Source: Phycisphaerae bacterium
GTDB taxonomy: Bacteria > Planctomycetota > Phycisphaerae > UBA1845 > PWPN01
Length of the DNA stretch: 64,000 bases
NCBI GenBank assembly: GCA_018003015.1
Contig: JAGNEZ010000003.1
Span: forward strand, 124,001-188,000
Reading direction: 5' to 3'
Each line of letters starts with the position of its first letter. Position 1 is the first letter of the stretch. The notes under the pieces are model-generated. The model was not told where the DNA came from. It was given only the letters and a program-made list of their open reading frames with translations, and searched no databases. The translations under genes were made by a program, and so were the position numbers. Of the stretch, positions 40,599-46,949 are shown piece by piece.

Positions 40599-40967
40599 AT
40601 GGGTGAGCCTCTCGTTCGATCCATGCGTCGACCTCCCCGCCACCCATCCGGCTTCAGGGGACTGGGCTTCACGCTAATCGAAGTCCTGGTCGTCGTGGCC
40701 ATCATCGATCTGATGATCGGCTACAACGCCACCACCGCCAAGCAACGATTCAGCGACGGCTATGTAGCCGAGAAAGAAGCGGGCTGGCATTTCGATGTGC
40801 TCAGCTACAAGGGGGAGCTCCTGTGGCAGAACGCCGTGCCCGGTAGTGGCAACCGCGTTGTCCCCATCCTGTGGATGATCAAGGACGCCAACCCGCTCAC
40901 GGCGCCTATTCCGAACGGACAGGTCTGGTTCGGCGGCCGGCGAGGCGGCGAAGCCTCGTTCGACTGA
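40599..40967 (+). pseudogene. Pseudopilin relic with two in-frame internal deletions
   Basis: This 122-residue frame is a shortened version of the 362-residue neighbour. Residues 1-36 match the prepilin start (GLGFTLIEVLVVVAII). Residues 37-99 match 174-236 of the neighbour (DLMIGYNATTAKQRF, GYVAEKE, VLSYKGELLW). Residues 100-122 match 340-362 (GQVWFGGRRGGEASFD). So about 137 and 103 residues are missing, both without breaking the frame. The hydrophobic alpha-1 helix is cut after VVVAII and FLDGH is gone, so a normal pilin fold is impossible. It has its own promoter and a good ribosome site (AAAGGAG), so it may still be expressed. Confidence 0.7.
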
Positions 40968-40991: not shown

Positions 40992-43289
40992 ATGGACATG
41001 CGGAGTATCGACGGGGGGATCGCACTCGTCTCGTGGTTGCTTGTGGCGTCGAGTCTGCCGGCGGAGGAGCTAGCCCCGGGAGTCACGTACACCGTCCACG
41101 CGGCTCCCGGGCCAACCACGGTCTATGTGGTCAAGATCGACCGGCTCCGGGCCGAATACAAGCTGCAACTCGGCTGGTCGCAAGGAAAACGCAACTATAC
41201 GGCGAGAGAAACGGTCGATATCATCGCCAATCGCTATGATCAACCAGCTGGCGAGGACGTGATCTCAGCGGTCAATGCGTCCTATTTCGACGGGGTCACG
41301 GCCCCAAGGCTGATCGGCATCGGTCAGAGCGACGGCCAGATGCTGGATACACCCAGCTTCAACGCCGGCTACACCTACCACACGCTCATGGTCGGACCCG
41401 CTCGGCAGCCAACCATCCGCACCAACTTCGGTCACAGCCTCGGCACGCTGACTCTCCCTGATGGCCACACCATGCCGCTGACTCAATACAACTACTCCAT
41501 GGGCGGCCCGCTGTACCCGGTCAACGGAATCGTCGCGTTCACCCCCGGATTTGACAGTTCGACGCGCAGCAGTTTCATCTCCCCTTCGATCGCCGTCGAA
41601 GTCGTCTTGAGTGAGGTGAGCTATCCCATGCGCGGCGACAAAGAGGTGGCCGGCATCGTTACCGCGATCAACCATCCGACGACAGGCAATGCGGCGATCC
41701 CGGCCGGGGGGATGGTCCTGTCCGCCTGGGGAAACGAAGAGACGAGGAAAGGCATCCTCGACCACGCCCGCATTGGTGACCGGCTCAAGATGCGATTCGC
41801 CAGCCAGGCCGAGGAGTACAACAACTCGGACAACGCGGTCACCGGTATCGGCTGGATCATTCACCAGGGAGCCGCGTACACTGCTGGCTGGCAGAACCTC
41901 GAATCGGGAGCCGCTCCGTACAGCCGCAATCCCCGCAGTGTCATGGCCTGGAATGACCACTTCTGGTTCCAGGTCGTCTGCGACGGCCGCGGTGTCGGCG
42001 GGAGCGTGGGTATGACCTTCCAGGAGATGGCCGATTTCCTCACCGGCACGCTCGCAGCGACCGAAGCGGTCAATTTCGACGGCGGCGGCTCGGCCACCCT
42101 GGTCGTCAACGGTCAAGTCAGGAACCGCCCTTCCGACGGCTCCCCCCGACCGGTCGCCAACGCCCTTCTGCTGGTCAATCGGGATACCACGACCGGGTTC
42201 CCGCTCTCCGACCCGTTCGCAAGCACCGGGCGTCTGAGCGGCTGGGACGACAAGTTCCGATACGCCGACGTGGTGGCCTTCTCACCGGCCGCCCCGGGCG
42301 GGGACGGCTACGTGCTCAGGGTGATGAACAGCGAGGGTGGCGTGGATACCTGCCGGCGAGGTGACTTCGGGGACACGGACTACAGTGTGCAGGCGGAGGT
42401 CTACTGCGAGTATCGACCGGACGTTACTGATGACGGTTACGAGCGTTACGGCTTGTTTGCCCGTGACTCGGGAACCGGGGCCTTCACGCTGTCCCACTAC
42501 GGCGGCGGCAATGGCTACGCCCTGCTCTACGACTCCAACGACGGGCGAATTCGGGCGGGAAAGCTGGTCAACGGCACGCCCATCGACTTCTTGGCCACAC
42601 CCGTCTACGAGCCTTCGACCGCATGGCGAACCTTCCGAATCGAGTGTCGGGGAGCGGCCATCAGGTACCTAGTGGACGGCCAACTGATCACCAGCGCGGC
42701 CGACACCGACTTCGCCCACGGGTGCTTCGGCATCGGCTACCAGGAATCCTTCGCCACTAACTCGAACATGCACGGCACGCGGGTGGACAACTTCACGGCC
42801 ACCGACAATACCGGTCCGCTCCCGCCCGCGGCTGAGTTCACCGCCAGTCCGGCAGCGGGAGTTGTTCCTCTCCGTGTGCAGTTCACCGATTCTTCCTCCG
42901 GCGGCATGATCGACACATGGCTATGGGATTTCGGCGACCAGACCACCAGCAACTTGCGAAACCCGAGCCACGTGTATTCGACCGCGCGGACCTACACCAT
43001 CTCGCTCACCGTGACCGGACCGGGCGGATCGAGCACGAAGACGAAGCACGCGTTCATCGACGCCCAGCCAAAACCGGGTGACCTCGACGCCGATGACGAT
43101 GTGGACGGCGACGACTTTGCCCGGCTACAGCTCTGCCTGGCCGGCGCCGGTCATCCAGTGACCGACGTCACCTGCAAGGGTGCCGATCTCACGGGAGAGG
43201 GTGACGTGGACCGCAGTGACATCACCCGGTTCATCAAGTGCGTCAGTGGTGCCGGCATCCCCTCGGATCGCGACTGCCTGGGCAACTGA
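40992..43289 (+). CDS. Secreted phosphodiester-glycosidase (NAGPA-like) with PKD domain and EF-hand tail
   Basis: This 765-residue protein has a short signal peptide (LVSWLLVASSLPAEE). The first 390 residues match the NAGPA/DUF2233 family: VISAVNASYFDG, MVLSAWG, VNFDGGGSATLVVNG, PRPVANALLL. This family hydrolyses the phosphodiester bond to N-acetylglucosamine or similar capping sugars. A beta-sandwich domain follows (about 400-610, YSVQAEVYCEYRPD, YRYLVDGQL-like segments). A PKD domain follows at about 615-695 (WLWDFGDQTTSNLRNPSHVY). The tail has DLDADDDVDGDDFARLQLC and DLTGEGDVDRSDITRFIKC, then VSGAGIP and a final Cys. Probably extracellular, acting on surface glycans. Confidence 0.85.
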   Translation: MDMRSIDGGIALVSWLLVASSLPAEELAPGVTYTVHAAPGPTTVYVVKIDRLRAEYKLQLGWSQGKRNYTARETVDIIANRYDQPAGEDVISAVNASYFDGVTAPRLIGIGQSDGQMLDTPSFNAGYTYHTLMVGPARQPTIRTNFGHSLGTLTLPDGHTMPLTQYNYSMGGPLYPVNGIVAFTPGFDSSTRSSFISPSIAVEVVLSEVSYPMRGDKEVAGIVTAINHPTTGNAAIPAGGMVLSAWGNEETRKGILDHARIGDRLKMRFASQAEEYNNSDNAVTGIGWIIHQGAAYTAGWQNLESGAAPYSRNPRSVMAWNDHFWFQVVCDGRGVGGSVGMTFQEMADFLTGTLAATEAVNFDGGGSATLVVNGQVRNRPSDGSPRPVANALLLVNRDTTTGFPLSDPFASTGRLSGWDDKFRYADVVAFSPAAPGGDGYVLRVMNSEGGVDTCRRGDFGDTDYSVQAEVYCEYRPDVTDDGYERYGLFARDSGTGAFTLSHYGGGNGYALLYDSNDGRIRAGKLVNGTPIDFLATPVYEPSTAWRTFRIECRGAAIRYLVDGQLITSAADTDFAHGCFGIGYQESFATNSNMHGTRVDNFTATDNTGPLPPAAEFTASPAAGVVPLRVQFTDSSSGGMIDTWLWDFGDQTTSNLRNPSHVYSTARTYTISLTVTGPGGSSTKTKHAFIDAQPKPGDLDADDDVDGDDFARLQLCLAGAGHPVTDVTCKGADLTGEGDVDRSDITRFIKCVSGAGIPSDRDCLGN

Positions 43290-44741: not shown

Positions 44742-45311
44742 CTACTTGCCTGGAGGCAGTTCCTTCTTCTCGGGCTCCTTGGACGGCTGGGGGGCGCTCT
44801 CGAACGCCTGCAGCACGGTGAGGTTCTCTTCCTCGGCGACCCGCTTGCCGCGCTGGCCGTAGTGCAGGAAGGCCATCACCATGATCAGGACAATGGTCCC
44901 ACACCAAGCCACCAGCGGCTGTCCGAGTCCACAGGCCATGCCCATCAGCAGGCTGAACAGGAGCAGGGTCGTGTCCTTGGGATCAGGCACGATGGTCCGA
45001 TAGCGAATGAGGCCGACCATGCCGCCCAGACCGAAGGCCCGAGCGAGGTTATCGCCGACGACCAGCCAGATGATCGCACCACCGAGCGCCAGCAGCGTGT
45101 GGGTGTCGGGCAGCGCCGCGTTCAGCCGTACACCGGTGAACGTCCGTCGATAGACCTGGCCGATAATCCAGCCGAGGAAGGCGGCGGAGACCAGTCGGAT
45201 GAGCACGCTCTGGATACCGAGAGTGGTGTCGCCAGTGCCACTGATCTCCCCGAAGAGGCGATCCAACCAAGGGTTGGCGTTCAGTACTTGATCCATTGTG
45301 GTCATGCCCAT
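44742..45311 (-). CDS. DUF4956-family membrane protein
   Basis: This 189-residue protein has four hydrophobic segments (about 37-58, 70-90, 118-135, 137-152) and the family stretch GLGGMVGLIRYRTIVPDPKD. It belongs to the DUF4956 family, which is commonly found beside VTC-type polyphosphate polymerase genes. Its role is unknown; a part in polyphosphate or surface-glycan assembly is inferred. It overlaps the VTC-like gene by 10 bases (M1 at 45311; M3 and M6 are alternative starts). It converges with the FN3/EF-hand protein gene. Confidence 0.8.
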   Translation of the reverse strand: MGMTTMDQVLNANPWLDRLFGEISGTGDTTLGIQSVLIRLVSAAFLGWIIGQVYRRTFTGVRLNAALPDTHTLLALGGAIIWLVVGDNLARAFGLGGMVGLIRYRTIVPDPKDTTLLLFSLLMGMACGLGQPLVAWCGTIVLIMVMAFLHYGQRGKRVAEEENLTVLQAFESAPQPSKEPEKKELPPGK

Positions 45312-46057
45312 TCCTGAGCTCCTGGTTTACGAATACCCAGCACATTTCCGATCGCCCAAGCATATTTCGACATGCGATGGGCGCGGTGCATCGTCACCTT
45401 GTCTCTCAACTGGTAGAACCACTCCGGGCGTTCGCCGGTGGACTTGATCTCGAGGATCAGGCCGGTGAAGTGACCCTCCGGTCGGCTGGCCGGCCCTCGC
45501 GCCCGCACGTCGCGATCCAGCGTAATCCGCAGTTCGTCGGTTGCCGTCCGCTGAAACGCGAGCCGCTCATACTGGATGCACACCACCGGTCGTAGAGCCT
45601 TGGACTCAATCAAGCGGGTGATGTGCTGATACGTGTTGAGCAACTTGGGATCACCGTTGCTCTTGAGGGTGGGCCAGATGTCGGCGCCCTCGTCCACCAG
45701 ACGGGCCACGTCGCTGACGCGACTGCCGAACCGGCGCTTCGAGCCAATCCCCCGGTTCTTCATCTTGACTTCGACCCAGCAGTTCTCGCCAAAACGGCCC
45801 TGGTGACCGTACTCGCGAATACGGATTTTCCAGCGAACCATCAGGCCGACCAAGTAGTCCTGATAGCATCTGAGATCCGGCGTATCGAGATAGAGGGACC
45901 GGACGCTGGACCAGCCGGTCGGAGTATATGAGAAGATGGGGACATGCACGCGGAGCGCGTTGATAACGGGCCCCAGTTCAGACCGTGGCAGCCAATACTT
46001 GTGCTCGCTGCGCTTGGCAAAGGTCCCGGCGGTGCCGACAGGTGCAGTCTGCATCAT
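45302..46057 (-). CDS. VTC-domain polyphosphate-polymerase-like protein
   Basis: This 251-residue protein has the VTC/TTM tunnel motifs: RSEHKYWLPRSEL, VRSLYLDTPDLRCYQD, RWKIRIREYG, CWVEVKMKNRGIGSKRR and ILEIKSTGERPEWF. Alternating Arg/Lys and Glu residues line the triphosphate tunnel in this family. In yeast the VTC domain makes polyphosphate from ATP; bacterial homologues are less well studied. Its start shares the ATGA overlap with the pseudopilin gene stop, and DUF4956 overlaps its end, so all three are translationally linked. Confidence 0.87.
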   Translation of the reverse strand: MMQTAPVGTAGTFAKRSEHKYWLPRSELGPVINALRVHVPIFSYTPTGWSSVRSLYLDTPDLRCYQDYLVGLMVRWKIRIREYGHQGRFGENCWVEVKMKNRGIGSKRRFGSRVSDVARLVDEGADIWPTLKSNGDPKLLNTYQHITRLIESKALRPVVCIQYERLAFQRTATDELRITLDRDVRARGPASRPEGHFTGLILEIKSTGERPEWFYQLRDKVTMHRAHRMSKYAWAIGNVLGIRKPGAQEWA

Positions 46058-46914
46058 TCATTGATGGGGTCAGGATCCCATGGTCCCACATCGGCGGGCT
46101 GCCAGACGACCGGCGAATTGCCAAAGGACTTCTTGGCCAATACCTTCTTGTGCATGTTTTCAATGTTGCCACCGGCAAAAACGATGTTCGTCTTGGTGTT
46201 GTGGCGGTAGTCCACATCGTCCATCGTCTGTCTCCATCGCCCCTTGAACGACAGGACATCTCCGCCTACATCGCCGTCAAAAAGCAGCACCGTGGTCAAC
46301 GGACTCTTGAGCGTATCGAGTTTCCGGAACGGCGGCCTCAGGTAATAGGGACTCAACCAGTTCGTCTCAGCGAGCTTGCTGTTCATGCGATAGCCCTCGG
46401 AGCTGTTCGGGGCATCGCGGGCAACCGTAGGGCACAGCTTGACTCCCACATTTTTCTTGTCGGTCTTGAGGTACTTGTCCACCGCATCATACCAGCAGAG
46501 ATAGTCTTTTCGTTCCTTGTATATCTCTGAAGGGAGGAGGTTCTCTTTCACGCGGTCCTCGAACGGCAGGAAACCGCCGTGAGCACTGGCATACATCAGC
46601 ATGGCCTTCGAAAGCTCGGTGAAATTGGTCCGACAGAGGACGGAGCGGACGTTCTCACGACTGGTGGCTAGGCTGGGGATGATAATGCTGACCAAGAGCG
46701 TAATGATGGCGACCACGACCATGAGCTCGATCAGGGTGAAGGCCCGTCCTCCGGGACGGCGCGAGCTGAGAACCGACTGTGCCCGCCGAGGGGATACACG
46801 ACTGGCTTCAAGGGAACGGATAGCCGAACCCACGAGACAACATGTGGTCACAATATCGGCCTCCCAGCGTCGGAATGACAAGAGGATCCCTCGCCCCGCG
46901 AGACGATGGCACAT
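46054..46914 (-). CDS. Pseudopilin-like protein at the head of the VTC operon
   Basis: Read from the ATG at 46914, the protein is 286 residues; a GTG at 46917 is next to it. It has a prepilin-type cleavage site followed by a long hydrophobic helix (GRAFTLIELMVVVAIITLL, then VSIIIPSLATSREN). About 57 residues precede the cleavage point, far more than the usual 6-25. The globular part has VKLCPTVARDAPNSSEG and a C-terminal region (GRWRQTMDDVDYRHNTKTN, FAGGNIENMH) like other planctomycete prepilins. A TTGACC / TAATAT promoter lies directly in front. A GTG further in (codon 23 counted from 46917, in DIVTTCCL) is a possible alternative start. Confidence 0.8.
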   Translation of the reverse strand: MCHRLAGRGILLSFRRWEADIVTTCCLVGSAIRSLEASRVSPRRAQSVLSSRRPGGRAFTLIELMVVVAIITLLVSIIIPSLATSRENVRSVLCRTNFTELSKAMLMYASAHGGFLPFEDRVKENLLPSEIYKERKDYLCWYDAVDKYLKTDKKNVGVKLCPTVARDAPNSSEGYRMNSKLAETNWLSPYYLRPPFRKLDTLKSPLTTVLLFDGDVGGDVLSFKGRWRQTMDDVDYRHNTKTNIVFAGGNIENMHKKVLAKKSFGNSPVVWQPADVGPWDPDPINE

Positions 46915-46920
46915 CACTCG

Positions 46921-46949
46921 ATATTAACCCTTGATGAGGCTTAGGTCAA
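46921..46949 (-). promoter_or_regulatory. Promoter of pseudopilin-VTC-DUF4956 operon, leaderless candidate
   Basis: On the minus strand TTGACC (46949-46944), 17 bases and TAATAT (46926-46921) are followed after 6 bases by the ATG at 46914. The transcript would begin at or beside the start codon. Confidence 0.55.

Follow-up and report, generated by a model that had tools for sequence, protein, structure and literature searches.

A pseudopilin lineage genetically linked to DUF4956, usually together with a VTC-type polymerase gene, in Phycisphaerae

One lineage of pseudopilins is genetically linked to DUF4956: in 8 of the 9 genomes with a full orthologue the pilin gene adjoins a DUF4956 gene, usually with a VTC gene between or beside them and mostly in compact sets on the same strand. 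The adjacency is conserved and is not due to chance. The pilin and DUF4956 are the constant pair, because two genomes, G455 and G505, keep it without a detected VTC gene, and the link to VTC and polyphosphate is optional. The features of the locus in the window, the stretch of 64,000 nucleotides analyzed here, are as follows.

44742-45311, minus strand: DUF4956 gene, 189 aa, short membrane protein related to MgtC
45302-46057, minus strand: VTC gene, 251 aa, triphosphate-tunnel, polyphosphate-polymerase-like protein
46054-46917, minus strand: prepilin-type (pseudopilin) gene, 287 aa as called, recognized by N_methyl, TIGR02532, orthologues and omega
46156-46206, minus strand: C-terminal block of the pilin group, RHN..TN....GN.EN, conserved in the alignment of the group
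46678-46746, minus strand: class III prepilin signal and the first part of the hydrophobic helix, RA/FTLIELMVVVAIITLLVSIIIP, with TIGR02532 over residues 58-80
46921-46949, minus strand: sigma-70-like promoter candidate, TTGACC-17-TAATAT, from a consensus scan

Layout of the locus and the pilin protein

The initial annotation had described the three genes as fused into one translationally coupled operon behind one promoter. Both junctions that it reported are present in the sequence: the pilin stop and the VTC start overlap in ATGA, and the adjacent VTC and DUF4956 reading frames share 10 bases. The three genes do overlap, but they are not fused and the wording was loose. In the genus-mate, the junction of the pilin stop and the VTC start reads TAATG rather than the ATGATG of the window, which makes the second ATG the probable conserved start of VTC. 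Translational coupling of the pilin and VTC is equally plausible with either start. The promoter candidate does precede the genes; however, TTGACC-17-TAATAT is one of three consensus matches in the region, where shuffling gave an expectation of 1.0, a frequency near that of chance.

The reading frames are real, and purifying selection is strong on all three. The window and the genus-mate share 97-100% protein identity across the trio. The synonymous and non-synonymous counts were 26/6 for the pilin, 34/10 for VTC and 21/0 for DUF4956, with omega values of 0.066, 0.081 and 0, respectively. The window genome contains one VTC gene, one DUF4956 gene and 86 TIGR02532-type pilin matches. A CotH kinase gene is absent from the window locus; the genome has nine CotH matches, none of them on contig C3. 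Elsewhere in the window, a prepilin-type gene of 122 aa (40599-40967), when aligned with its 390-aa counterpart in the genus-mate (L049:14916-16088), appears to have lost two in-frame blocks from its interior. The protein encoded at 40992-43289 (765 aa) matched NAGPA (phosphodiester glycosidase), PKD and, weakly, dockerin; its gene adjoins two prepilin-type genes in both the window and the genus-mate.

The pilin scored above the cut-offs of Pfam N_methyl (E 8.9e-05) and TIGR02532. A prepilin cleavage signal is followed by a hydrophobic helix, the mark of a type IV pilin or type II pseudopilin, and the predicted model has a 51-residue helix spanning residues 62-112. The true start may be a later GTG codon at about 46853 or 46835. 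The equivalog models for GspG, PilA and ComGC were all below cut-off (GspG, 36.6 bits vs. 88.85). When the low-confidence predicted models of the pilin and DUF4956 (mean pLDDT 59 and 66) were compared with the PDB by Foldseek, no match was better than E 0.5. An expansion of N_methyl/SBP_bac_10 (DUF1559) pilin-like proteins in Planctomycetes is described in PMC8567305. Like the proteins described there, the window pilin has a prepilin signal, a single N-terminal helix and many paralogues per genome; unlike them, it forms a separate lineage tied to DUF4956. The possibility was considered that it is itself a DUF1559/SBP_bac_10 member, which was rejected because the window pilin has no DUF1559 match. 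The orthologue of G519 gave only a sub-threshold 14.5 bits against this family. The C-terminal block of the pilin group bears a weak likeness to the H-X9-DG motif of planctomycete pilins, and TIGR04294 matched one of nine members.

Linkage of the pilin to DUF4956

Of the order's 114 genomes, 35 gave a VTC match, and as much as 20 kb of sequence surrounding these matches was inspected. The pilin query was an alignment (A2) of the C-terminal region of five linked pilins that the order had yielded, and it was searched against the phylum sample, GTDB contigs, the order and the class sample. Because this query contained only linked pilins, the class-sample search served as a held-out test. Nine genomes, belonging to several families, contained a full orthologue: the window genome (G000), G042, G038, G051, G065, G105, G455, G505 and G519. 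A pilin fragment in G002, close to the end of a contig and either truncated or fused, was excluded. The initial annotation would have taken absence of the pilin from VTC loci in all close relatives as a sign of chance adjacency; the pilin is present in genomes of the same genus, the same family and other families. The sole new orthologue from the held-out search, in G519, is unlinked to DUF4956, and a canonical CotH/HlyD/DUF4956/VTC locus lies on another contig of that genome. This case counts against a strict rule of pilin-DUF4956 linkage.

The neighborhood survey of VTC/DUF4956 loci proposed in the initial annotation showed that the pilin does recur, although most loci of the order are without it. 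The pilin is adjacent to all seven short-type DUF4956 genes, and six of the eight linked loci also contain VTC. Among the 33 other VTC places in the order, a pilin lies within 2 kb at one, that of G065, and at none of the remaining 32; some of the 33 are near contig ends, which leaves a few flanks incomplete. The more distant pilins (L071-L098 and L106) showed no VTC or DUF4956 in their flanks, about 1.5 kb per side for most. A Fisher test of 5 short-type against the 33 other VTC places gave p about 1e-5, and the co-occurrence of pilin and DUF4956 in the order gave p 0.0005. In both tests the counts are not independent, because the seven short-type loci share ancestry, and for this reason two separate linkages were given more weight than the p values.

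The second linkage is that of G065, where the pilin sits at the end of an ordinary VTC-DUF4956-HlyD set. In the pilin tree G065 groups with G051 as its sister (99/93), yet the DUF4956 of G051 is short and that of G065 is of the ordinary type. This observation bears on the explanation that a single accidental adjacency arose in an ancestor and was inherited and passed on as a block in pilin-rich genomes. The single clade formed by the short-type loci and the 86 pilin-like genes of the window genome speak for such an accident; however, in G065 this pilin lineage has a DUF4956 of another type as its partner, and the pair persists without VTC and with changed orientation, so that hitch-hiking is very improbable. 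A high number of pilins was also considered as a source of chance adjacency, and this was rejected because the orthology search recovered one lineage with two types of DUF4956.

Gene order varies among the linked loci and is divergent in G105, whose orthologue has a long branch in the pilin tree and is placed apart from the rest. In this genome two pilin-type genes are divergent from VTC-DUF4956 (L054:7607-9277); the usual FTLIE signal is gone from the orthologue, which reads AISRIE, and is kept in the neighboring pilin-type gene.

DUF4956, VTC and the variant loci

The match of the window protein to DUF4956 (Pfam PF16316) is marginal, with E 1.4e-07 and 31.8 bits against a cut-off of 30.6; its relatives at L102, L104 and L105 scored 39.4, 44.5 and 29.2 bits. 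Against MgtC (Pfam PF02308, cut-off 31.4), the window protein scored 20.6 bits and the G051 relative 38.6. All eight aligned relatives of the short DUF4956 matched both families, and the MgtC match was stronger in the short proteins than in the long ones. The seven short-type proteins recovered, including that of G505, form a clade of their own with support of 100/100. A short-type profile gave 258-301 bits in six genomes and 108 for the next protein. A sequence search of the PDB with the DUF4956 profile gave no match.

The likeness to MgtC, above the curated cut-off in one short protein, raises the possibility of a regulatory or sensing module, in which DUF4956 would sense or control the phosphate or energy state, VTC would be an optional effector, and the pseudopilin would be exported as a sensor or substrate and would not be built into a filament. 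Survival of the DUF4956-pilin pair without VTC agrees with this scheme. However, the lamin-tail, CotH and HlyD neighbors point to work in the envelope or at the surface, and the scheme is considered unlikely.

The VTC protein is well matched by Pfam PF09359 (E 1.2e-42, 146.6 bits against a cut-off of 23). Thirteen charged residues, R16, E18, K20, R79, R81, E96, K98, K107, R165, R177, E203, K205 and K231, are invariant in four members of the subfamily. Its best sequence match in the PDB is yeast Vtc4, a weak one (E 0.037), and by this weak alignment the invariant residues may correspond to those of the Vtc4 tunnel and its published active site. The retention of these putative tunnel residues and the presence of VTC in most linked loci would suit polyphosphate secretion, with VTC making polyphosphate, DUF4956 acting as its channel and the pseudopilin forming a short filament that carries or holds the polymer outside. 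Against this stand G455, a 98% complete genome, and G505, where the pilin and DUF4956 are retained and VTC is not detected; both are draft assemblies, so that the absence is not proof, and secretion of this kind is regarded as doubtful. On account of these two genomes, polyphosphate as an obligate theme was rejected. The suggestion in the initial annotation of a surface-filament or secretion link to polyphosphate or phosphoglycan chemistry is partly supported: the pilin is a recurrent partner and not a chance neighbor, but it is DUF4956, and not VTC, to which it is linked.

The neighbors of the linked genes also differ among loci. In G505 the pair has a lamin-tail-domain gene on one side and a giant lamin-tail/CotH gene on the other, all on one strand; the latter (L103:10926-19880) directly follows the pilin-DUF4956 pair, and its open frame in the genome extends over 6212 aa. 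The G038 trio is flanked by Cthe_2159-domain and lamin-tail genes, and just after it a VTC fragment runs into HlyD-like sequence (L100:8059-9363). The arrangement looks as if the trio had settled in an ordinary locus of which the VTC/HlyD piece is a decayed remnant. Apart from this apparent remnant, HlyD is found in no short-type locus, whereas it nearly always adjoins DUF4956 in ordinary loci that are compact. In G051, a GH10/CBM60 xylanase-like gene follows the pilin-VTC-DUF4956 set (L102:12403-15591).

Proposed role and relation to known systems

Accessory genes for CotH, a poly-phosphate polymerase, DUF4956 and DUF4832 are described with the Pel operon of Gram-positive bacteria (streptococci, clostridia and bifidobacteria) in PMC7112168, and a VTC/CotH cluster is listed for a Clostridium perfringens locus in PMC2879425. 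The Pel accessory set has adjacent genes for a VTC-type polymerase and DUF4956, as here, with CotH nearby, and many ordinary loci of the order carry all three. The linked loci differ from that description in having a pseudopilin partner and a short DUF4956, in the absence of HlyD and CotH from most of them, and in that VTC is sometimes missing. No Pel genes were recognized among the neighbors read. For the eukaryotic VTC complex, PMC9911596 reports coupled synthesis and translocation. The yeast complex, with Vtc4 and membrane subunits, resembles the present locus in joining a VTC catalytic domain to a membrane partner. It differs in that no SPX domain was found in the window VTC locus, DUF4956 is MgtC-like, and the similarity to Vtc4 is weak (E 0.037).

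The favored explanation, to which roughly even confidence is attached, is that these loci are a variant of the bacterial VTC/DUF4956/CotH envelope module that bears a pseudopilin in place of, or alongside, the exported HlyD and CotH parts. DUF4956, MgtC-like and with about five predicted membrane spans, would be the inner-membrane hub. Where present, VTC would use ATP to make a phosphate polymer on the cytoplasmic side, which it would hand to DUF4956. The pseudopilin would be cut by prepilin peptidase, sit in the inner membrane and extend into the periplasm, where it would do the job of the HlyD, lamin-tail and CotH proteins of ordinary loci and may carry, anchor or present the product, or pass a signal, across the envelope. 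That the pseudopilin stands in place of an exported partner is proposed because of the distribution of HlyD between ordinary and short-type loci, and the affinity to the ordinary module because the G505 pair again has lamin-tail and CotH parts as neighbors. A more tentative reading is that the pseudopilin and the short MgtC-like DUF4956 make up an envelope device of two parts, extended with a polyphosphate polymerase in most lineages but not in all, the pilin-type protein working in polymer export or phosphate sensing.

The bacterial VTC/DUF4956/CotH set recurs in distant bacteria, and a passage-level search of the literature found no paper establishing its function and none pairing DUF4956 with a pilin. 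Planctomycete genomes, in turn, hold scores of pilin-like genes of unknown purpose. The present results suggest that the constant element is DUF4956 rather than the polymerase, and its conserved, compact association with one pilin lineage offers a specific and testable partner for each of these two puzzles.
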